Below are positions 42,396 to 51,960 of a stretch of DNA of 64,000 nt, in pieces. Below the pieces are notes generated by a model. That model did not search any database, was not told where the DNA came from, and saw nothing but the letters and a program-made list of their open reading frames with translations. This DNA is from Flavicella sediminum (GTDB taxonomy: Bacteria; Bacteroidota; Bacteroidia; Flavobacteriales; Flavobacteriaceae), in the NCBI RefSeq assembly GCF_006381105.1, contig NZ_VDET01000007.1, positions 1 to 64,000 of the forward strand. The letters run 5' to 3'. The first letter of the stretch is position 1. Every line of letters begins with the position of its first letter. A program made the translations under genes and the position numbers.

Positions 42396-42400
42396 AAGTT

Positions 42401-43048
42401 TTAAAGGCTTTCCAAGTGTTTTATCACATGTTGCAAGGAAGCACATTGCAGGTCAGCTATTGAAAATTTGGGATTTTGTACATCCTTCGTTAAAATGAGT
42501 GTTGTTGCCATAGAAGCTTTTGCAGCAATCATTCCTGTCACGGAATCTTCTAAAATAAAGCATTCTTCAGGTTTGGAGTTTAATTTCTCCATCACTTTTA
42601 AATAAACAGCTGGATTAGGTTTTCCATAGAGTTCATCGTCGGCACTGCAAATTTCATTAAAAAAATATCTAACCGCTAGCTTGTCTAAAACAGCATTAAT
42701 TATTTTCCAACTAGAAGAGGTTGCAAGCCCGATTTTATACTTTTCTTTCTTTAGGTAGCTTAAAAGCTCCGTTAAGCCTTCAATCGCTTTTCCGTTTTCT
42801 ATAATGTTTAACACAACTTGATCTAAAATACTTTCAGCCAATACATCTGGAGAAATAGTTAAATCGTATAAATCGCACCAAGTTTTTGCTACATGGTCTA
42901 TTCTTTTTCCCATGGTGTACTTTTCACAATCTTCAATACTAACAGAAATACCTATAGTTTGAAGTGTTTTTATTTGAGCAATTTGCCAAAAGGGTTCGGA
43001 GTCGATCATGACACCGTCCATGTCAAAAATAAAAGTAGTTGCTTTCAT
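42401..43048 (-). CDS. HAD-family sugar/polyol phosphatase (HxpB-like)
   Basis: HAD subfamily IA hydrolase of 215 residues. Motif I is FDMDGVMIDSEP (nucleophile Asp near 9), motif II GLATSSS, motif III lysine in YGKPNPAVYL, and motif IV ILEDSVTGMIAAK. The cap domain is alpha-helical (about 17-85). It resembles hexitol phosphatase HxpB/YniC and 2-deoxyglucose-6-phosphatase more than beta-phosphoglucomutase, by eye. It lies 3 bp downstream of the Nudix regulator and next to the mannitol operon. A role in removing toxic hexitol or sugar phosphates is therefore a reasonable inference, not proven. Confidence 0.88.
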   Translation of the reverse strand: MKATTFIFDMDGVMIDSEPFWQIAQIKTLQTIGISVSIEDCEKYTMGKRIDHVAKTWCDLYDLTISPDVLAESILDQVVLNIIENGKAIEGLTELLSYLKKEKYKIGLATSSSWKIINAVLDKLAVRYFFNEICSADDELYGKPNPAVYLKVMEKLNSKPEECFILEDSVTGMIAAKASMATTLILTKDVQNPKFSIADLQCASLQHVIKHLESL

Positions 43049-43051
43049 TGC

Positions 43052-43786
43052 TTAAATATTAATTAAATAATTTTTTTGATGCATTTTTTCATAAATATCT
43101 TTACTAAACATATAGAGTTGTGCAGGCTTTTTGGAAACCCCAACTTGTTTTTCATCCAACGGAATGATGTATTTTTTATGAATTAATTTTCTTCTAAAAT
43201 TACGGTTGTCTATTTCTACATTCAATATAGACTTGTACAAATCTTGTACTTCATTAATCGTAAATTTATCGGGGAGTAGTTCAAAAATAATAGGTTCAGT
43301 AAGGCATTTAAGTTTTAAGTCTTCATAGGCCTCAAGTATTATTTTTTTATGATCAAAGCCTAATTTTGGCAATTCTGATACGGGAAACCATTTTGCTTTT
43401 TGTTTGCTATTTAAATCAACATCTTCTGTTTTTACCAAAAAATAATAAGCAATAGTCACTGTTCGTTGGTTAAAAGCTTCATTGTCTATCCAAGGAGCAT
43501 CTTTCTCATCCTTTAATCTATTGGGATCACCAAATGCTTTAAATTGTTTTTTATAGGTATTGCTTAACCCCGTAAGCTCCTCCAAAACACGTGTTGCCGA
43601 TTGGTCTAAAGTTTCATGCTCATAGATATGATATCCTGTCAATACATAATCATTCACTAAAACCTCTTTTGTAGATTTAGATTCTAAGTAGCGATGGATT
43701 AACAATAAATTTAATGATTTGGATATAATGTCATATCCGAACACCACGCAATCGACAGATATATTTAAGTTTTTTATAAGTTCCAT
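43052..43786 (-). CDS. Nudix-related transcriptional regulator (NrtR/AraR-like)
   Basis: A 244-residue regulator. The N-terminal Nudix fold (about 8-145) has a degenerate Nudix box: RVLEELTGL stands where REUxEExGU is expected, so two key glutamates are lost and hydrolase activity is unlikely. The C-terminal winged helix (about 150-230) has FTINEVQDLYKSIL and NRNFRRKLIHKKYII as DNA-binding helix region. This architecture is that of NrtR-type repressors, which in Bacteroidota include the arabinose regulator AraR. It is divergent from the polyol operon, with related AAACGTCAT sequences at both promoters, so it is the likely local repressor. Effector unknown. Confidence 0.9.
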   Translation of the reverse strand: MELIKNLNISVDCVVFGYDIISKSLNLLLIHRYLESKSTKEVLVNDYVLTGYHIYEHETLDQSATRVLEELTGLSNTYKKQFKAFGDPNRLKDEKDAPWIDNEAFNQRTVTIAYYFLVKTEDVDLNSKQKAKWFPVSELPKLGFDHKKIILEAYEDLKLKCLTEPIIFELLPDKFTINEVQDLYKSILNVEIDNRNFRRKLIHKKYIIPLDEKQVGVSKKPAQLYMFSKDIYEKMHQKNYLINI

Positions 43787-43830
43787 AGTACGGTTATAAG
43801 TAGTTGCATTAGTTAATAGTTTTTGAAAAA

Positions 43831-43877
43831 TAATTAAACGTCATTTAAACACTAAGTATATTGATTTTCGTTTAATT
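43831..43877 (-). promoter_or_regulatory. Putative operator at Nudix regulator promoter
   Basis: AATTAAACG (43831-43839) and CGTTTAATT (43869-43877) form a perfect 9-bp inverted repeat spaced by 29 bp. The left arm merges into AAACGTCAT (43835-43843), identical to the half-site of the palindrome in front of the transport operon. The right arm sits at the predicted transcription start of the regulator gene. Confidence 0.55.
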
Positions 43878-43881
43878 GATA

Positions 43882-43911
43882 CAAATATATAAAAATAATC
43901 AAGATAAACAA
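43882..43911 (-). promoter_or_regulatory. Nudix regulator promoter
   Basis: On the minus strand TATATTTG (complement of 43882-43889) is preceded by a TTG (complement of 43909-43911) at 19-bp spacing. The predicted start lies near 43877, giving a leader of about 90 nt before the regulator ATG. Confidence 0.55.
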
Positions 43912-43974
43912 CTCATTTAAAACCTCTTATTTTTATGGGTTTACGATGCTATTTTTAATTTATTGTAAAATAAA

Positions 43975-44007
43975 TTTGTTTTTTACTATTTAATTTACAT
44001 ACATTTG
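43975..44007 (+). promoter_or_regulatory. Polyol transport operon promoter
   Basis: TTTG (43975-43978) and TACATTTG (44000-44007) are 21 bp apart. The predicted start is about 44012, immediately before the operator palindrome. Confidence 0.7.
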
Positions 44008-44013
44008 TGGAGT

Positions 44014-44032
44014 AAACGTCATAATGACGTTT
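44014..44032 (+). promoter_or_regulatory. Operator palindrome of polyol operon
   Basis: A perfect palindrome AAACGTCAT-A-ATGACGTTT of 19 bp lies at about +2 to +20 relative to the predicted start. The same half-site recurs at 43835-43843 upstream of the Nudix regulator. Position and symmetry are those of a repressor operator. Confidence 0.7.
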
Positions 44033-44062
44033 TATGGAAAAATAATTTAAACCAATAAACTT

Positions 44063-44932
44063 ATGAAACCAATTATTACATCTTATTCTATGAGACCCCT
44101 ACAAAATTTTGAAAGCGAACAAAACTATTTTTTTAGCACGATTTTGATTTTGACAGTTTTCTTATTTTCATTCAAATCTTTAAATGCTCAAAATAAAATA
44201 GAAGACACTTATGAAGCATTCAATGCAGGAGTACATGTAAAAAACATGCATTTATGGCATGGGTTTGTGGTGAACTCTAGCGCAATGATAGCAACCAATT
44301 TAGAATTTAATAGTAGAGACAAAAAATTTAATTTTGGCGTATGGGGTGGTGCTAGCTTTGCAGGAACCGATGTAACAAACAAAACTACCGGAGAAAGTGT
44401 AAGTGCCAATTATAAAGAATTCTCCATTTATACGTCGTATCGTTTTTCTGATAAATTCTTTATTGAAGCGGTATCACACAACAATTATACAGGGGTAGAA
44501 GAAAGAGGGGATGTTTTGCATTACTGGAGTTACGACACCACACAGGGCTATAATTTTGTAGACGTAAATTTTGGCTACAATATTACACCAAATACTTTAT
44601 TATATTTAGCAACCATCGTTGGTGGTGGATCTGGAGATTATGAGCTTCAAACAGACAATACAAGGAAACATTCTTGGACGCATTATTTTGAAGTAAAAAG
44701 TAAAGTATGGGAAAAGAATGATTCAAATCTATCCTTATTTGCTGGTGGTGCTTGGTCTTTTGTAACAGATAAAACTTTTTATACCAAAGGAGCTGGAAAT
44801 ATGATCAATGTGGGAGCAACATTGAGTAAAAAAATAAACATCGGGAATTATAAATTACCTGTTGATGTAACCGCTATGTGGAATCCAGAACAAGAAAAAA
44901 CGGTTCTCCAAGTAGATTTTACTATATTCTAG
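44063..44932 (+). CDS. Outer-membrane beta-barrel protein of polyol operon
   Basis: A 289-residue protein. The signal peptide is ILILTVFLFSFKSLNAQ, with a long N-region; an internal Met at codon 10 (44090) may be the real start. The mature part is amphipathic beta-strands (for example FNFGVWGGASFAG, YKEFSIYTSYRF, LSLFAGGAWSF) ending in a strand with a C-terminal phenylalanine (VDFTIF), the usual outer-membrane barrel terminus. I cannot name the family. As first gene of a sugar ABC operon it is a candidate channel for the polyol through the outer membrane, replacing a SusC/SusD pair. Confidence 0.75.
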   Translation: MKPIITSYSMRPLQNFESEQNYFFSTILILTVFLFSFKSLNAQNKIEDTYEAFNAGVHVKNMHLWHGFVVNSSAMIATNLEFNSRDKKFNFGVWGGASFAGTDVTNKTTGESVSANYKEFSIYTSYRFSDKFFIEAVSHNNYTGVEERGDVLHYWSYDTTQGYNFVDVNFGYNITPNTLLYLATIVGGGSGDYELQTDNTRKHSWTHYFEVKSKVWEKNDSNLSLFAGGAWSFVTDKTFYTKGAGNMINVGATLSKKINIGNYKLPVDVTAMWNPEQEKTVLQVDFTIF

Positions 44933-44982
44933 AAAAAACATTTTACCTAATAAAATAAACGTACAACTTAAACCCAATTATC

Positions 44983-46047
44983 ATGAAAATAACAAATATA
45001 AAAAACGTTTTAAATCATCTTAAAAAATCAATTTTAGCAGTTACTTTACTACTTAGTTTAGCTAGTTGTGTTGAAAAATTAAGTTCTGGAAAAACGGAAA
45101 CAACCAGAGAAGAGAATGCTGGTGAATTGATTGAAAGTAAGATCGACCTTACAGGAAAAAAAATAGGGTATTGCACACCTTCATTAAACGCACCTTATTA
45201 CCAAGCTTTGTTACAAAGTATTAAAAGTACAACAGAAAAGAATGGGATGGTGTTTTTATCAGCTGATGGGCAAGATGACATTAACAAACAAATTGCAGCT
45301 GTTGAAGATTTAATTACCAAAGGAGTGGATGCTTTGTTGTTGAACCCTAAAGATCCTGATGCCTTAGTAGTTGTAACAAAAATGGCGAAAGCTGCGGGAA
45401 TTCCTGTTTTTATTATTGATAGCTCTATCAATCCAAAAGCTGATTATGTTACCACAGTACAGTCAAATAACTTGGCTAACGGTGCTTTGGCAGGAGAGTG
45501 GTTGGCTAGAAAATTTGGAAGCAAAAAAATGAATATTGCTTTGTTAAGTGGAAATGCAGGAAATCCTGTGGGAAGAACTCGTAAACAAGGTTTACTACAA
45601 GGAATAACAGAAGAGCAATTAAGAACACAAGGAAAAATTAATTTAAATGTGCTTACACAAGCCTATACAGAATGGTCGTATGCAGGTGGGTTAAAAGCTA
45701 TGGAAGATATTTTAGTAGCACATCCAAATGTAAATGTGGTTATTACCGAATCGGATGTATGTGTATTAGGAGCCATCAAAGCCATTGCACAAGCGGGTAA
45801 AACAGATGATATTTTAATTGTTGCTGGTGCCGATGGTCAAAAAGAAGCAATTAAGTATATAATGGAAACAGATTTTTATGGATGTACAGCCATGAACAGT
45901 CCGGTGCAAATTGGAAAAAATGCCGTGCAATATGCCATTGAGTATATGAACGGAAAAAGAGATTTTTCGAAAACATCTTTTACAGCTCCTTTATTGATTA
46001 CCAAAGAAAATGCAGCACAGCACTACAATCCGAAAGCCTTATTTTAA
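44983..46047 (+). CDS. Sugar ABC transporter substrate-binding lipoprotein (RbsB-like)
   Basis: Periplasmic-binding-protein-like I fold, 354 residues, with a lipoprotein signal (LLLSLASCVEK). The ligand domain begins KIGYCTPSLNAPYYQALLQSI and contains GVDALLLNPKDPDAL, the typical hinge segment of the ribose/galactose-binding family. Anchoring as a lipoprotein is unusual for Gram-negative sugar-binding proteins but sensible in Bacteroidota. It delivers substrate, most likely mannitol or another hexitol, to the permease encoded downstream. Spacing of 18 bp to the ATPase gene indicates one operon. Confidence 0.92.
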   Translation: MKITNIKNVLNHLKKSILAVTLLLSLASCVEKLSSGKTETTREENAGELIESKIDLTGKKIGYCTPSLNAPYYQALLQSIKSTTEKNGMVFLSADGQDDINKQIAAVEDLITKGVDALLLNPKDPDALVVVTKMAKAAGIPVFIIDSSINPKADYVTTVQSNNLANGALAGEWLARKFGSKKMNIALLSGNAGNPVGRTRKQGLLQGITEEQLRTQGKINLNVLTQAYTEWSYAGGLKAMEDILVAHPNVNVVITESDVCVLGAIKAIAQAGKTDDILIVAGADGQKEAIKYIMETDFYGCTAMNSPVQIGKNAVQYAIEYMNGKRDFSKTSFTAPLLITKENAAQHYNPKALF

Positions 46048-46065
46048 TCACTAAACTATTACGAT

Positions 46066-47580
46066 ATGCAAAATTCAGCAAATGACTACCGATTAGAAAT
46101 GACTGGAATATCAAAAAGTTTTGGTGTTGTTTCGGTACTCAAAAATGTAAATCTTAAAGTAAAGTCTGGAGAAATCCATGCTTTACTTGGAGAAAATGGT
46201 GCAGGAAAATCGACTCTGATTAAAATTTTGAGTGGAGTGCATCAAAAAGATGGTGGACAGGTTTTATTAAATGGACAAGAAATCAATCCTAAAAACACAC
46301 ACGACGGCCAAGTATTAGGAATTAGTGTGGTATACCAAGAATTGTCTTTAGTTAACGATTTGTCAGTAGCAGAAAATATTTATCTACACAAATTAGGCGC
46401 AAGTAAGTTTTGGATGAATTGGAAAGAAATTACTAAAAACGCACAAGACTTAATTGATTCTTTAGGGTTTGAAATTGATGCCTCCGCTATTGTTAGAGAC
46501 TTAAGTATTGTTCAAAAACAAGTGGTAGAAATTGCCAAAGCTTTGTCCGAAGACACAAAGGTTTTGGTTTTAGATGAACCCACAACCGTTTTTGATCCTA
46601 AAGACACACAAAAGTTATTAGACAATCTGTTTAAGTTAAAAGAGAAAGGAATTTCAATCATTTATATTTCACATCATTTAGAAGAAATTTTTAAAATAGC
46701 CGATACCATTACTGTATTAAGAGACGGAGTAGATACTGGTAGTATGCCTGCATCAGCAACCCATACAGATGATGTGATTCGTTTAATGATTGGTAGAGAA
46801 CTAAAGGATTTGTATCCGGCTAGAACGGCTACAATTGGAGAGACGCCTATTTTTGAAGTTCAAAATTTGAGTGCCAAAGACAATTTGGTTCATGATATTT
46901 CTTTTTCAGTAAAACCAGGAGAGGTTTTAGGAATTGCCGGTTTAGGTGGAAGTGGAAGAACCGAGATGGCGAAACTTATTTTTGGATTGTATAAAAAGAA
47001 ATCTGGAACTATTCTATTAAATGGAGAAGAAATAAAAACAAGTTCACCTGTTGAAGCAGTGGCGCATAAAATAGGTTTTGTTTCAGAAGATAGAAAGGAA
47101 GAAGGTGTCTTTTTACCATTGTCTATTAAGAAAAATATTAGTGTGACCAATTTTGATTTTATCTCTAACAAATTTGGATTCTTAAAATTAGAGAAAGAGC
47201 AGGACAATGTTTCAGAGTTGATAAGTAAACTAAATATTAAAACACCAAGTTCTGAAGTAACGGTAAAAAACCTAAGTGGTGGAAATCAACAAAAAGTAGC
47301 TTTGGCAAAATGGTTGAGTATAGATAGTAAAGTAATTATCATTGATGAACCTACACGCGGGGTAGATGTAGGGGCAAAAATTGAAATTTACAATCTAATT
47401 AACGAGGTTGCCAGCAAAGGTGTTGCTGTTATAGTTATATCATCAGACATGCCCGAAATTATGGGGATTGCTGACAGAATACAAGTAATGCACACAGGTA
47501 GCATCTATGGAGAATTAGCTAAAGAACAGTTTTCTGAAGAAAATATTTTACGATACGCTATCGGAAAACCATTAAAATAA
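46066..47580 (+). CDS. Sugar ABC transporter ATP-binding protein, two ABC domains (RbsA-like)
   Basis: A 504-residue tandem ATPase. The first domain has Walker A LGENGAGKST (41-50), a variant signature LSIVQKQVVEIAKAL and Walker B VLVLDEPT. The second domain has a degenerate Walker A (GLGGSGRTEMAKL) but an intact signature LSGGNQQKVALAKWL near 402 and IIIDEPTRGVDVG. This asymmetry is normal for RbsA/MglA/XylG. It energises uptake through the permease. Confidence 0.95.
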   Translation: MQNSANDYRLEMTGISKSFGVVSVLKNVNLKVKSGEIHALLGENGAGKSTLIKILSGVHQKDGGQVLLNGQEINPKNTHDGQVLGISVVYQELSLVNDLSVAENIYLHKLGASKFWMNWKEITKNAQDLIDSLGFEIDASAIVRDLSIVQKQVVEIAKALSEDTKVLVLDEPTTVFDPKDTQKLLDNLFKLKEKGISIIYISHHLEEIFKIADTITVLRDGVDTGSMPASATHTDDVIRLMIGRELKDLYPARTATIGETPIFEVQNLSAKDNLVHDISFSVKPGEVLGIAGLGGSGRTEMAKLIFGLYKKKSGTILLNGEEIKTSSPVEAVAHKIGFVSEDRKEEGVFLPLSIKKNISVTNFDFISNKFGFLKLEKEQDNVSELISKLNIKTPSSEVTVKNLSGGNQQKVALAKWLSIDSKVIIIDEPTRGVDVGAKIEIYNLINEVASKGVAVIVISSDMPEIMGIADRIQVMHTGSIYGELAKEQFSEENILRYAIGKPLK

Positions 47581-47610
47581 ACCTAAACAAAAAAAATAAA
47601 CTTATACATT

Positions 47611-48579
47611 ATGGCCTTAACTATTCAACAACAATTAAGTAGCCCAAGAGGGTGGCTTAACTTCTTAATCAAGCACAACACAATTTTCATTTTCATTTTA
47701 TTGGTTGTCTTTTCAGCCCTTATTTCTGATGTGTTTTTCACATCTGTAAATTTATCAAACTTATTAAAACAAGTATCTGGTATAGGAATTATTAGTATCG
47801 GTATGTTAATCGTAATATTAACAGGGGGTATCGATTTATCCGTAGGTTCTATGGTGGCTTTATTAGCCGTAACCTTTGCCATTTTGGTCAATACCATTGT
47901 ACTGCCACTGGCTATTATAGCAACCATTGCTATAGGATTCGGTTTAGGAAGTATTGCTGGATATTTGGTCGCTTTTCAAAAAATGGCGCCTTTTATTGCC
48001 ACTTTAGCTTTAATGACTATCGCTAGAGGTTTAGGATTTATTTATTCGAAAGGATCTCCTATTACATTTGATACGGCAGGTGGATTGTTTATGTCAAATT
48101 TTGCAAACAATGCGACTTTGGGTATCCCGAATATTGCGATTGTCTTCTTTATCATTGTAATTGCTGCAATGGTCATGTTAAAATACAATGTATTTGGACG
48201 CTTAGTTATTGCTATGGGGAGTAACGAAGAGGCAGCTCGTTTGTCTGGAATTAAAGTAAACAAATACAAATTTTTAGTCTATGCTATTTCAGGAGCTTTG
48301 GCGGCTACTGCTGCTATTATTGTAGCTTCTAGAACCAATTTAGGATCTCCTAACATGGGTATGGCATGGGAATTAGATGCCATAGCCGCTGTTGTTATTG
48401 GAGGGGCTAGCTTAAACGGAGGTAAAGGAACTGCAATTAATACCTTAATGGGCGTCCTTATTTTAGGTTTGATTAGTAATATTCTAAACCTTTTAAATGT
48501 ACCGTCTTATCCGCAACAAGTAGTAAAAGGAGCAATTATTGTTTTTGCAGTATTGTTACAACGTTTTGAATCTAAATAA
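47611..48579 (+). CDS. Sugar ABC transporter permease (RbsC-like)
   Basis: Polytopic permease of 322 residues, about 8-10 spans, of the ribose/xylose/branched-chain type. Signature segments include LIVILTGGIDLSVGSMVAL and VFGRLVIAMGSNEEAARLSG (the coupling-helix region contacting the ATPase), and AVVIGGASLNGGKG. Only one permease gene exists, so it is expected to act as a homodimer. It lies 30 bp after the ATPase gene and 14 bp before the dehydrogenase gene. Confidence 0.95.
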   Translation: MALTIQQQLSSPRGWLNFLIKHNTIFIFILLVVFSALISDVFFTSVNLSNLLKQVSGIGIISIGMLIVILTGGIDLSVGSMVALLAVTFAILVNTIVLPLAIIATIAIGFGLGSIAGYLVAFQKMAPFIATLALMTIARGLGFIYSKGSPITFDTAGGLFMSNFANNATLGIPNIAIVFFIIVIAAMVMLKYNVFGRLVIAMGSNEEAARLSGIKVNKYKFLVYAISGALAATAAIIVASRTNLGSPNMGMAWELDAIAAVVIGGASLNGGKGTAINTLMGVLILGLISNILNLLNVPSYPQQVVKGAIIVFAVLLQRFESK

Positions 48580-48593
48580 TAAAAAACTGTCTC

Positions 48594-50078
48594 ATGAAAA
48601 GTTATAAATTAAACAATCAGAACTTGTCTAAATTTAAAGAGCAAGTTGCTGTTCCAACATATGATAGAAGTCAAGTAAAAACAGGAATTGTACACGTAGG
48701 TATTGGTGGTTTTCACAGAGCACATCAGGCTTTGTATACCGATCAGTTATTACACAATCCGTCCGTAAACGAATGGGGGATTTGTGGAGTTGCCTTGTTA
48801 GATTTTGATCAAAAAATATACAACACGCTAAAAGAACAAGATGGTTTGTACACCTTAGTAGTTAAAGAACTAGATGGGACCTTTACCAAAAGAATTATTG
48901 GTTCTATTGTGGAATGTTTGTTTGCTCCAGAAGACCCTTCTAAAGTAATTGAAAAAATGGCCAATCCAGATGTAAAAATCATCACCTTAACCATTACAGA
49001 AGGTGGGTACAATTACAACGAAGCTACGGGAGAATTTAACTTTGAGAATCCACAGATTCAGTCAGACATTGAAAATCCACAGGCACCTAAAACCATTTTT
49101 GGTTACTTAACACAAGCTTTAAAATTAAGAAAAGAAAGAGGGTTACCAGGGATTACCATACAATCTTGTGATAACATTCAAGGAAACGGACACATGACTC
49201 ATAAAATGTTGTTGAGTTATGTAAAAGTTGCAGCTCCAGAATTGGTGTCTTGGATAGAAAGTAACGTTTCTTTTCCTAATAGCATGGTAGACAGAATTAC
49301 GCCGGCAACAGCACCTTCTGATATTGTTGCTTTAAAAGAAACTTCAGGAATTGAAGATGCTTGGCCAGTGGTTTGCGAACCTTTTAAACAATGGGTAATT
49401 GAAGATGATTTTGCTACAGAAAGACCTGCTTGGGAAACCGTAGGAGCACAGTTTGCAAAAGATGTAGTTCCTTATGAAAAAATGAAGTTGAGCTTATTAA
49501 ATGCTGGACATTCGGTTTTAGGAATACTCGGTTCTTTACTAGGATACAATGCCATTGATGAAGTAGTACACAACCCAAATATCAGTACTTTTTTAAAGGC
49601 ATACATGGATGTGGAAGTGACACCTACGATAGGAGAATTAGAAGGGGTCGACTTAAATATCTACAAGAAATCTTTACTAGAGCGTTTTGGAAATATAAAT
49701 ATCAAAGATCAATTGGATAGAATTTGCTCTGAGAGTTCTGCTAAAATTCCAATTTTTATTTTACCAACAGTACAAGCACAATTAAAAGACAAGGCATTGG
49801 TAAAACGTGCAGCTTTTGTATTAGCAGCTTGGGCAGTATATAGTATAGGTACCGATGAAAAAGGTAAGGAATTGGTGATTAAAGATGCTTTAAAATCTAC
49901 TTTACATACCAAAGCACAAGTAGCACAAAAGAATCCAACAGCGTTTTTAGACATAGAAACTGTTTTTGGAACATTAAAAGAGTCTTCTGTATTTGTACAA
50001 GCATACAAAGAGGCTTATGAAAACATAACCACACATGGAGTAGAAAAATGTGTGATTGAGATAAACAATACCCTTTAA
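48594..50078 (+). CDS. Mannitol 2-dehydrogenase family protein
   Basis: Long-chain polyol dehydrogenase (PSLDR family), 494 residues. It oxidises D-mannitol (or a related polyol) to the ketose with NAD. The N-terminal Rossmann part has VHVGIGGFHRAHQALYTDQL. The catalytic segment KLSLLNAGH gives Lys298, Asn303 and His306, the same K-x4-N-x2-H spacing as Lys295, Asn300 and His303 of Pseudomonas fluorescens mannitol 2-dehydrogenase, which is also about 493 residues. It is placed between sugar permease and fructokinase, which argues for mannitol-to-fructose. Fructuronate or altronate reductases belong to the same superfamily and are the alternative. Confidence 0.9.
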   Translation: MKSYKLNNQNLSKFKEQVAVPTYDRSQVKTGIVHVGIGGFHRAHQALYTDQLLHNPSVNEWGICGVALLDFDQKIYNTLKEQDGLYTLVVKELDGTFTKRIIGSIVECLFAPEDPSKVIEKMANPDVKIITLTITEGGYNYNEATGEFNFENPQIQSDIENPQAPKTIFGYLTQALKLRKERGLPGITIQSCDNIQGNGHMTHKMLLSYVKVAAPELVSWIESNVSFPNSMVDRITPATAPSDIVALKETSGIEDAWPVVCEPFKQWVIEDDFATERPAWETVGAQFAKDVVPYEKMKLSLLNAGHSVLGILGSLLGYNAIDEVVHNPNISTFLKAYMDVEVTPTIGELEGVDLNIYKKSLLERFGNINIKDQLDRICSESSAKIPIFILPTVQAQLKDKALVKRAAFVLAAWAVYSIGTDEKGKELVIKDALKSTLHTKAQVAQKNPTAFLDIETVFGTLKESSVFVQAYKEAYENITTHGVEKCVIEINNTL

Positions 50079-50088
50079 GACCAACAAA

Positions 50089-50970
50089 ATGAAAAATATA
50101 ATTTGCTTCGGCGAAGTGTTGTGGGATGTATTTCCAGAACATAAAAAAATAGGGGGAGCTCCTTTAAATGTAGCCATCCGACTGCAATCATTAGGAAATA
50201 AAGTCGCCATAATTAGTCGTGTAGGTAATGATGAGGATGGAAATGAAATTATAGATTTCATTCAACAAAATAAAGTCAATAGCATGCTTGTTCAAGAAGA
50301 TGCTGTTTTAGAAACAGGAAAAGTAAAAGTAACCTTAGACCCAACAGGTTCTGCTTCGTATGATATAAAATTCCCTACAGCCTGGGACAACATTCAGTTA
50401 ACTGACAAAGCAAAAACGGCTTTACAAACTACGGATGCTTTTGTTTTTGGAAGTTTAGCATCTAGAGATATTACCTCTAGAAATACGTTGTATGAATTGT
50501 TAAAACTAGCTCCTTATAAAATATTTGATGTCAACCTAAGAAAACCTCATTACAGTGCAGACGTGTTGAATCACTTAATGTGTGAGGCTGATTTTATCAA
50601 ATTTAACGATGAGGAACTTTTAGAAATTGCCCAAAATTACGAAGTCAATATAGAGACTTTAGAAGAATGTGTTCAATTTATAGCTCAAAAAACAAATACA
50701 AAATCTATTTGTGTAACCAAAGGAAGTAAAGGAGCTATGTTGTATTTCAACAATGAATTTTACAACAACCCGGGCTACAAAATAAAAGTAGTTGACACCG
50801 TAGGAGCTGGGGATTCTTTTTTAGCTTCATTAATTGATCAATTGTTAAAAGATACCCATCCACAAAGAGCTTTGGATTTTGCTTGTGCAGTCGGGGCACT
50901 TGTAGCCAGTAGAGAAGGTGCAAATCCGAAATTAAAAGAACAAACAATTGAAAATCTTATAAATTCTTAA
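50089..50970 (+). CDS. Fructokinase, PfkB carbohydrate kinase family
   Basis: Ribokinase-fold kinase of 293 residues. N-terminal signature FGEVLWDVFPEHKKIGGAPLN (substrate-binding GG region, about 6-26) and the C-terminal VVDTVGAGDSFLAS with the catalytic Asp are typical of bacterial fructokinases. It would phosphorylate the fructose produced by the dehydrogenase 10 bp upstream. It is the last gene of the operon and is followed by a terminator. Confidence 0.92.
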   Translation: MKNIICFGEVLWDVFPEHKKIGGAPLNVAIRLQSLGNKVAIISRVGNDEDGNEIIDFIQQNKVNSMLVQEDAVLETGKVKVTLDPTGSASYDIKFPTAWDNIQLTDKAKTALQTTDAFVFGSLASRDITSRNTLYELLKLAPYKIFDVNLRKPHYSADVLNHLMCEADFIKFNDEELLEIAQNYEVNIETLEECVQFIAQKTNTKSICVTKGSKGAMLYFNNEFYNNPGYKIKVVDTVGAGDSFLASLIDQLLKDTHPQRALDFACAVGALVASREGANPKLKEQTIENLINS

Positions 50971-51006
50971 AAAGAAATAAACATATAATACCCCGAGTTT
51001 AAGTTT

Positions 51007-51054
51007 GACCTCCTGTAACTTTGTTTTAAACAAATGCGACAGGAGGTTTTTTTA
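51007..51054 (+). terminator. Terminator of polyol operon
   Basis: ACCTCCTGT (51008-51016) pairs with ACAGGAGGT (51039-51047), enclosing an inner TTGTTT/AAACAA hairpin. T-run follows on the plus strand. The convergent EamA gene ends directly at its right side. Confidence 0.75.
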
Positions 51055-51960
51055 TTAGGAAATGATATTTTGTTCTTTTCGTTTTCTATTTCTTTTTAAA
51101 ATTTCATTGATCATAATAAGAACCAATATTAAAAAGGAACAGCCATAAAATGTAAGTGTCATTTTTTCTTGTTCTCCAAAAACCAAATAGCCCAAAATAA
51201 TGGCATATACAATTTCTAAATTAATGGTTAGGTTAACAGAAAAAGGACTTAGTTGTTTCATGACTTCTACACTTGCTATAAAAGGAAAAGCTGTACATCC
51301 AATTCCTAATAAAAGCAAATAAACTAAATCTTGTTGTGTAGGATAAAAAATAGTTTCAGGAACTTCAAAGAAAATAAATAGTCCAATAGTAACAAGTGCC
51401 AAAGCAAAAATAAGTTCGACAAAAGAAATGGTAAAGGCATCTGCTTGCTGAATTAATTTTCCATTTATAGTAGAAAAAATAGCTACGGTTAAGGCGGCCA
51501 TCGAACCTAAAAATATTCCTGCAATCGGATTTTCAGAATTTTCAAATTCACTAAACCCAATAAAACTTAGGATCACAATTATCAATAAACCGATAAGGAC
51601 TTCATTGCGATTAATTTTTCGTTTGTACACCCAAGGTTCTATCAAGGAAGTGAAAAAAGTTCCTGATGAAACAGAAATCATGGCAATAGAAATATTGGCT
51701 ATTTTAATTCCTCCAAAAAAACAAAGCCAATGAATGCCGACAATAGCACCAACCGCTGCAATTTTTAAAAAAAGCGTTTTGCTTAAACGTAATTTTTTTC
51801 TTCGAAGAAGCATGTAAATAAATAATGAAATGTTCACCAAGACCAATCGCCACCAAACTAAAGCAATAGAATCGTAAGAAATTAATTTTCCTAAAATAGC
51901 CGTAAATCCCCAACAGAGCACACAAAGGTGCAGTAGCAAAAGAGCTTGATTTCTTGTCAT
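51055..51960 (-). CDS. EamA/DMT family transporter
   Basis: A 301-residue membrane protein with ten hydrophobic spans in two five-span halves, the drug/metabolite transporter layout (EamA repeat). It starts with LLLHLCVLCWGFTAILGKLI. It probably exports amino acids or other small metabolites; specificity unknown. The C-terminus is a basic tail of Lys and Arg residues. Confidence 0.92.
   Translation of the reverse strand: MTRNQALLLLHLCVLCWGFTAILGKLISYDSIALVWWRLVLVNISLFIYMLLRRKKLRLSKTLFLKIAAVGAIVGIHWLCFFGGIKIANISIAMISVSSGTFFTSLIEPWVYKRKINRNEVLIGLLIIVILSFIGFSEFENSENPIAGIFLGSMAALTVAIFSTINGKLIQQADAFTISFVELIFALALVTIGLFIFFEVPETIFYPTQQDLVYLLLLGIGCTAFPFIASVEVMKQLSPFSVNLTINLEIVYAIILGYLVFGEQEKMTLTFYGCSFLILVLIMINEILKRNRKRKEQNIIS

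Follow-up and report, generated by a model that had tools for sequence, protein, structure and literature searches.

Brown algae store mannitol as one of their main sugars, and marine Flavobacteriia that consume it carry out a step in the carbon cycle; no description of how these bacteria control mannitol use was found in the literature searched. Groisillier and colleagues are said to have reported, in 2015, a mannitol utilization system in Zobellia galactanivorans. The locus considered here, in a 64,000-nucleotide stretch of Flavicella sediminum DNA (contig NZ_VDET01000007.1, positions 1 to 64,000, forward strand; hereafter the window), raises the question of which protein acts on the region between a Nudix-type regulator gene and a divergent transport operon, and at which sites. 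We consider it highly probable that two sites in this region, O1 and O2, are operators of the adjacent Nudix/winged-helix repressor, with autoregulation and a polyol-type inducer. The argument rests on the conservation of the sites, their placement relative to the promoters, their joint occurrence with the regulator, and the family and contact residues of the protein; from these we infer that it binds, that it represses instead of activating, that it regulates its own gene, and what its effector is. The genes concerned are the following.

42401 to 43048, minus strand: HAD phosphatase of the hexitol phosphatase HxpB type (NF008087, 192.5 bits, cut-off 191)
43052 to 43786, minus strand: regulator with a degenerate Nudix domain and an NrtR/AraR winged helix (PF21906, PF19368, PF00293)
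44063 to 44932, plus strand: product of the first operon gene, a conserved protein whose N-terminal segment is hydrophobic (present in 28 of 30 loci)
44983 to 46047, plus strand: periplasmic sugar-binding protein, RbsB-like (PF13407)
46066 to 47580, plus strand: sugar ABC transporter ATPase (domain and family models)
47611 to 48579, plus strand: sugar ABC transporter permease (PF02653)
48594 to 50078, plus strand: mannitol 2-dehydrogenase (Mannitol_dh domains; nearest solved structure mannitol dehydrogenase 1lj8, E 3e-137)
50089 to 50970, plus strand: PfkB kinase, a fructokinase by context (family models)

The phosphatase gene lies 3 bp behind the regulator gene and is probably cotranscribed with it, and the first operon gene gave no Pfam match. 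The sequence-only reading spoke of a polyol locus, which holds in that general sense and can be made more precise, since homology and the known mannitol system of Z. galactanivorans, as cited in PMC9296495, make mannitol the likeliest substrate of the operon. A Zobellia locus (L013), likewise one of flavobacterial mannitol catabolism, shares this operon and the two operators. Eight loci lack the ABC transporter but keep the dehydrogenase, the kinase, the regulator and both operators; transporters are thus exchanged around a constant core, which links the regulation with the catabolism of mannitol and not with any one transporter. Among the conserved neighbor genes examined beyond the operon, no further regulator was found. 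One locus (L015:5022-6737) carries a permease-like membrane protein in the position of the ABC transporter, to which it is unrelated, between the first gene and the mannitol dehydrogenase gene and with the same operator; here, too, the dehydrogenase, the kinase, the regulator and both operators are retained.

The intergenic region contains the following elements.

43836 to 43854, no strand: putative operator O2, AAACGTCATTTAAACACTA, semi-palindromic, predicted at +24 to +42 of the regulator transcript, within its leader
43869 to 43877, no strand: CGTTTAATT, right arm of an inverted repeat proposed earlier, judged to be due to chance
43882 to 43889, minus strand: -7 box of the regulator promoter, TATATTTG, present in the window type and less clear in the 150-bp type
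43944 to 43959, no strand: CGATGCTATTTTTAAT, possible degenerate remnant of an AraC-type repeat, at the register where other loci have that repeat, with a background tandem score
43975 to 43978, plus strand: TTTG, candidate -33 element of the operon promoter (read from the sequence, with inferred spacing)
44000 to 44007, plus strand: -7 box of the operon promoter, TACATTTG, 6 to 7 bp before O1 in 36 of 39 loci
44014 to 44032, no strand: putative operator O1, AAACGTCATAATGACGTTT, perfect 19-bp palindrome, predicted at +3 to +21 with its center at +12

In Flavobacterium, the sigma-A -7 box TAnnTTTG spans positions -12 to -5 (PMC9723704). On this basis, TACATTTG predicts an operon start at about 44012, so that the perfect 19-bp palindrome that the sequence-only reading had placed at the start of the transport operon is indeed found there, and TATATTTG, read from 43889 to 43882, predicts a regulator start at about 43877. 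Of the three loci in which TACATTTG does not have this spacing, two keep a TAnnTTTG box 11 bp from O1. Within the window, O1 is the sole match when up to three mismatches are allowed (0.03 expected in shuffled sequence). A perfect palindrome of the 9-1-9 form is not rare in 64 kb of AT-rich DNA (two observed, 0.9 per shuffle), and the case for O1 therefore rests on its position and conservation. O1 is also the only intergenic AAACGTN7ACGTTT in the genome to which the window belongs. A larger regulon in that genome was considered and rejected, as the only other such sequence sits within an OsmC-like reading frame and one-mismatch matches are no more numerous than those to a reversed-pattern control.

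A scan with the adjacent regulator recovered 29 orthologous loci in Flavobacteriia, including Wenyingzhuangia, Zobellia, Cellulophaga, Maribacter, Winogradskyella and Lacinutrix. A motif matrix built from the 60 sites of these loci and the window was then applied to loci retrieved by whole-genome search. Both sites occur in all 30 motif-building loci and in all nine new loci outside the motif derivation, hence in 39 of 39, all from Flavobacteriaceae or near relatives; a search for the motif upstream of orthologous operons had been set beforehand as a possible refutation of the operator proposal, and this is its outcome. On the operon side the consensus is AAACGTnAnWATGACGTTT, with a nearly invariant AAACGT...ACGTTT core, and on the regulator side it is AAACGTCAnnnnnACRTTA. 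The more distant homologues of the regulator (43 to 47% identity) mostly lack the motif, and three have one related site just upstream of the gene. The O1/O2 pair is kept in dozens of related seaweed-associated bacteria. In a single locus, a third strong operator-like site, AAACGTATATAATACGTTT, lies downstream of the kinase gene (L016:434-452).

The association with the regulator was further examined by searching 400 genomes of the family for the promoter-plus-site pattern CATTTG-N4-8-AARCGTN7ACGYTT, which occurs in 15 of them, 13 times at the regulator locus and twice elsewhere, against one occurrence of the reversed-pattern control. The pattern is present in 13 of the 15 genomes with a close regulator orthologue and in 2 of the 385 without one (Fisher p 1e-20). 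The two orthologue-bearing genomes that miss it keep O1, with a TAnnTTTG box 11 bp away.

As for the second site, the half-site AAACGTCAT does recur upstream of the regulator, as had been noticed, at 43836 to 43844 rather than one base earlier (43835 to 43843). It had also been read as part of an inverted repeat AATTAAACG...CGTTTAATT, and this part of the proposal does not stand: both arms are present (the left one at 43832 to 43840), but the right arm occurs in only 1 of the 39 orthologous loci, namely the window itself, and chance would be expected to produce repeats of this kind in the intergenic region (0.68 per shuffle). Judged by conservation, the second site is the semi-palindrome at 43836 to 43854 rather than the AATTAAACG inverted repeat. 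With a matrix score of 15.4, compared to 27.8 for O1, O2 is the second-best 19-mer in the window.

The protein encoded beside these sites shows the characteristics of the NrtR/AraR family, namely, an N-terminal Nudix domain followed by a C-terminal NrtR-type winged helix (PF00293, 26.3 bits; PF21906, 83.9 bits; PF19368, 46.3 bits; all over cut-off), a palindromic operator, some 20 bp long, at the target operon and an impaired Nudix signature (Y-HIYEH-E-TLDQSAT-RVLEELTGL), in which the Gly and two catalytic Glu residues are lost. Since the Nudix box reads RVLEEL instead of REUXEE, hydrolase activity is unlikely. The nearest solved structure is that of BtAraR (5bs6), the NrtR-family L-arabinose repressor of Bacteroides (BT0354; PMC4666351; PDB 5bs6, 5dd4, 5ddg, 5deq). 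The DNA contact residues Asp178, Arg180, Asn181 and Arg183 of BtAraR are conserved in all 39 orthologues, and the half-site bases opposite Asp178 and Asn181 (the G and T of nnGTnA) are common to the AraR operators and those described here. In the AraR-DNA complex, Lys179 reads the G at half-site position -7 (PMC4666351). Its equivalent is Asn in 39 of 39 orthologues, and the base at that position is A in most half-sites, a match that is a single comparison with no independent repeats; it leads to the prediction that Asn reads A where the Lys of AraR reads G. The full contact set of AraR orthologues is not retained, Lys179, Lys184 and Arg205 being replaced by Asn, Arg and Lys, respectively (in L013 and L047, the Arg205 equivalent is Arg). 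Arg180, Asn181 and Lys204 are kept. In the ligand pocket, the residues that hold L-arabinose in BtAraR (Arg34, Arg86 and His131) have conserved equivalents, in keeping with a hydroxylated ligand that would release the DNA. Different from BtAraR, Phe36, Gly48, Phe49 and Val92 are replaced by Leu, Tyr, His and Thr, changes that fit a different polyol or sugar ligand.

BtAraR thus shares with the present regulator a Nudix fold without the hydrolase signature, a winged-helix dimer, the sugar-anchoring residues, the Asp-x-Arg-Asn-x-Arg contact helix and a semi-palindromic operator, roughly 20 bp in length, at an operon for sugar catabolism that adjoins the regulator gene. However, the two proteins are 39% identical, the half-site is ACGTCA instead of GTGTTA, and two operators 150 to 180 bp apart over divergent promoters replace the tandem sites, 3 or 42 bp apart, of BtAraR. 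Furthermore, the arabinose genes and GTGT-type sites of the AraR group give way to a mannitol dehydrogenase/fructokinase operon and ACGT-type sites. The Bacteroides XylR (BT0791) is likewise an NrtR-family sugar regulator clustered with its catabolic genes (PMC3878776; PMC4666351), but its locus is for xylose. The NrtR repressors of NAD metabolism, such as that of Shewanella oneidensis (3gz5), have the same two-domain architecture but are associated with NAD genes and ADP-ribose as the effector, and the NCBIfam model of the ADPR-responsive repressor gives 75.4 bits here against a cut-off of 400. Judged by its domains, residues and gene context, the regulator is a previously undescribed, mannitol-linked member of the known NrtR/AraR sugar branch, which suggests that this branch of Nudix regulators extends to polyols in marine Bacteroidota. 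A second NrtR-family regulator in the genome of the window (L032:1447-2157; G000:C5) adjoins a CBS-domain gene, is 52% identical to BtAraR and has Ala at the 179 recognition position. Elsewhere, one genome (L048 and L055) holds two paralogous Nudix regulators, 44% identical and about 9 kb apart, which probably flank the mannitol operon on either side.

A de novo motif search between the two operators revealed the element GnYAAWWTARCAYA in tandem, with 21 bp from one copy to the next; in 25 of 39 loci the tandem starts 89 to 91 bp before O1. AraC proteins are known for this arrangement, a pair of half-sites in tandem at a distance of 21 bp. When five whole genomes were searched for the tandem, a perfect copy turned up in three of them in front of a gene of the AraC family (PF12833) that is unlinked to the mannitol locus. 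Tandem 21-bp repeats upstream of this gene lie at L097:1501-1533, L098:1501-1533, L099:1501-1533 and G000:C12:30226-30281. A matrix trained on mannitol regions only scored 10 to 34 upstream of this gene in its closest orthologues (67 to 100% identity) and no more than 7 for more distant AraC paralogues, few of which could be scored. The tandem is absent from the mannitol region of the two genomes without an AraC homologue of at least 40% identity and, likewise, from that of the one genome whose sole AraC homologue is at 40%. The unlinked AraC-family protein is thus a candidate self-regulating second regulator of the mannitol loci. In the genome of the window, the AraC gene is present with tandem sites beside it; in the mannitol region of the window the tandem score is at background, and we therefore do not claim this layer there. 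A Crp-like reading of the element was rejected because its spacer is one base longer than that of the Bacteroides Crp motif (PMC3878776) and the association with the AraC gene fits better.

As an unlinked AraC-type factor appears, in most orthologues, to share this control region, and the assignment of O1 and O2 to the Nudix protein rests on sequence comparison, it is possible to imagine that both sites serve a different, unlinked regulator and that the Nudix gene is a mere neighbor. We regard this as very unlikely, since the motif and the Nudix regulator occur together in the survey of 400 genomes, the half-site can be aligned to that of AraR (nnGTnA) with the dimer spacing unchanged, the altered contact residue matches the altered base, and the AraC-type factor has its own, different motif. 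Conservation in orthologues, co-occurrence and contact residues that fit the operator thus favor the adjacent Nudix-type repressor, as the sequence-only reading had supposed, and the regulator very probably binds both O1 and O2. Its action as an activator, as exerted by some winged-helix regulators, is highly improbable: in 36 of 39 loci, O1 lies at or just beyond the predicted start, a repressor position that supports repression, and the solved relatives are repressors freed by ligand (PMC4666351). That O1 is an RNA hairpin at the mRNA 5' end, rather than a protein site, is scarcely credible although the window copy can fold (-6.7 kcal/mol), because across orthologues positions 7 and 13 pair in 5% and positions 9 and 11 in 31%, the 4-16 pair is lost from O2 in 82%, and the outer six pairs of O1 hardly vary, so that they show no compensatory change.

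According to the preferred repressor reading, a regulator dimer bound to O1 over the operon start would block RNA polymerase when no inducer is present, and a dimer on the weaker O2, in the regulator's own leader, would limit expression of the regulator gene and of the phosphatase gene behind it. The inducer, a polyol or its product, most likely mannitol or fructose, would enter the degenerate Nudix pocket, and the winged helices of the inducer-bound protein would rotate out of register, opening both promoters. Autoregulation, which the presence of a second site supports, is the less certain half of this scheme, because the window's O2 is a weak site located beyond the predicted start.

The distance between O1 and O2 falls into two classes, of 147 to 153 bp in 34 loci (mean 149.8, sd 1.5) and of 178 to 180 bp in five (class mean 178.8, or about 179), among them the window, while between O2 and the start codon the distance ranges from 21 to 105 (sd 15). 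In the 40 bases next to O2, the likeness between species is 0.33 to 0.36, compared to 0.33 for random sequence; length has thus been preserved where sequence has diverged. The diverged stretch spanned by these tight classes is 43855 to 43999 in the window, with equivalents in L001 to L029. The fixed spacing would be accounted for by a repression loop or, alternatively, by divergent promoters of rigid architecture. Strict helical phasing was rejected, as the 29-bp difference between the classes is not a whole number of turns at helical repeats of 10.3 to 11.3, which weakens looping.

In the lac region of Escherichia coli, the main operator is centered near +11, there is a second operator, and activator sites lie between or beside the two. 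By comparison, we tentatively consider a lac-like arrangement possible, in which the Nudix repressor would loop O1 to O2 and an unlinked AraC layer would operate in most species, having been lost or replaced in the lineage of the window. The self-regulating AraC-family protein would then bind within the loop, on the tandem 21-bp repeats positioned near -82 and -61, and the two layers would allow the operon to integrate two signals. Different from lac, the repressor is unrelated, the second operator is at the repressor's own divergent promoter, and looping is an option only. For this mannitol system the analysis yields a specific regulator, two operators and a candidate second regulator; its less usual features are the constant distance between the operators and the additional AraC layer.

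Along the locus (42400 to 51100, compared with L001), DNA identity to Wenyingzhuangia aestuarii rises from about 75% at the regulator end to 92 to 98% in the mannitol dehydrogenase gene, which is absent from the five other genomes of the window's genus; the gradient and this absence suggest lateral transfer or recombination of the operon.
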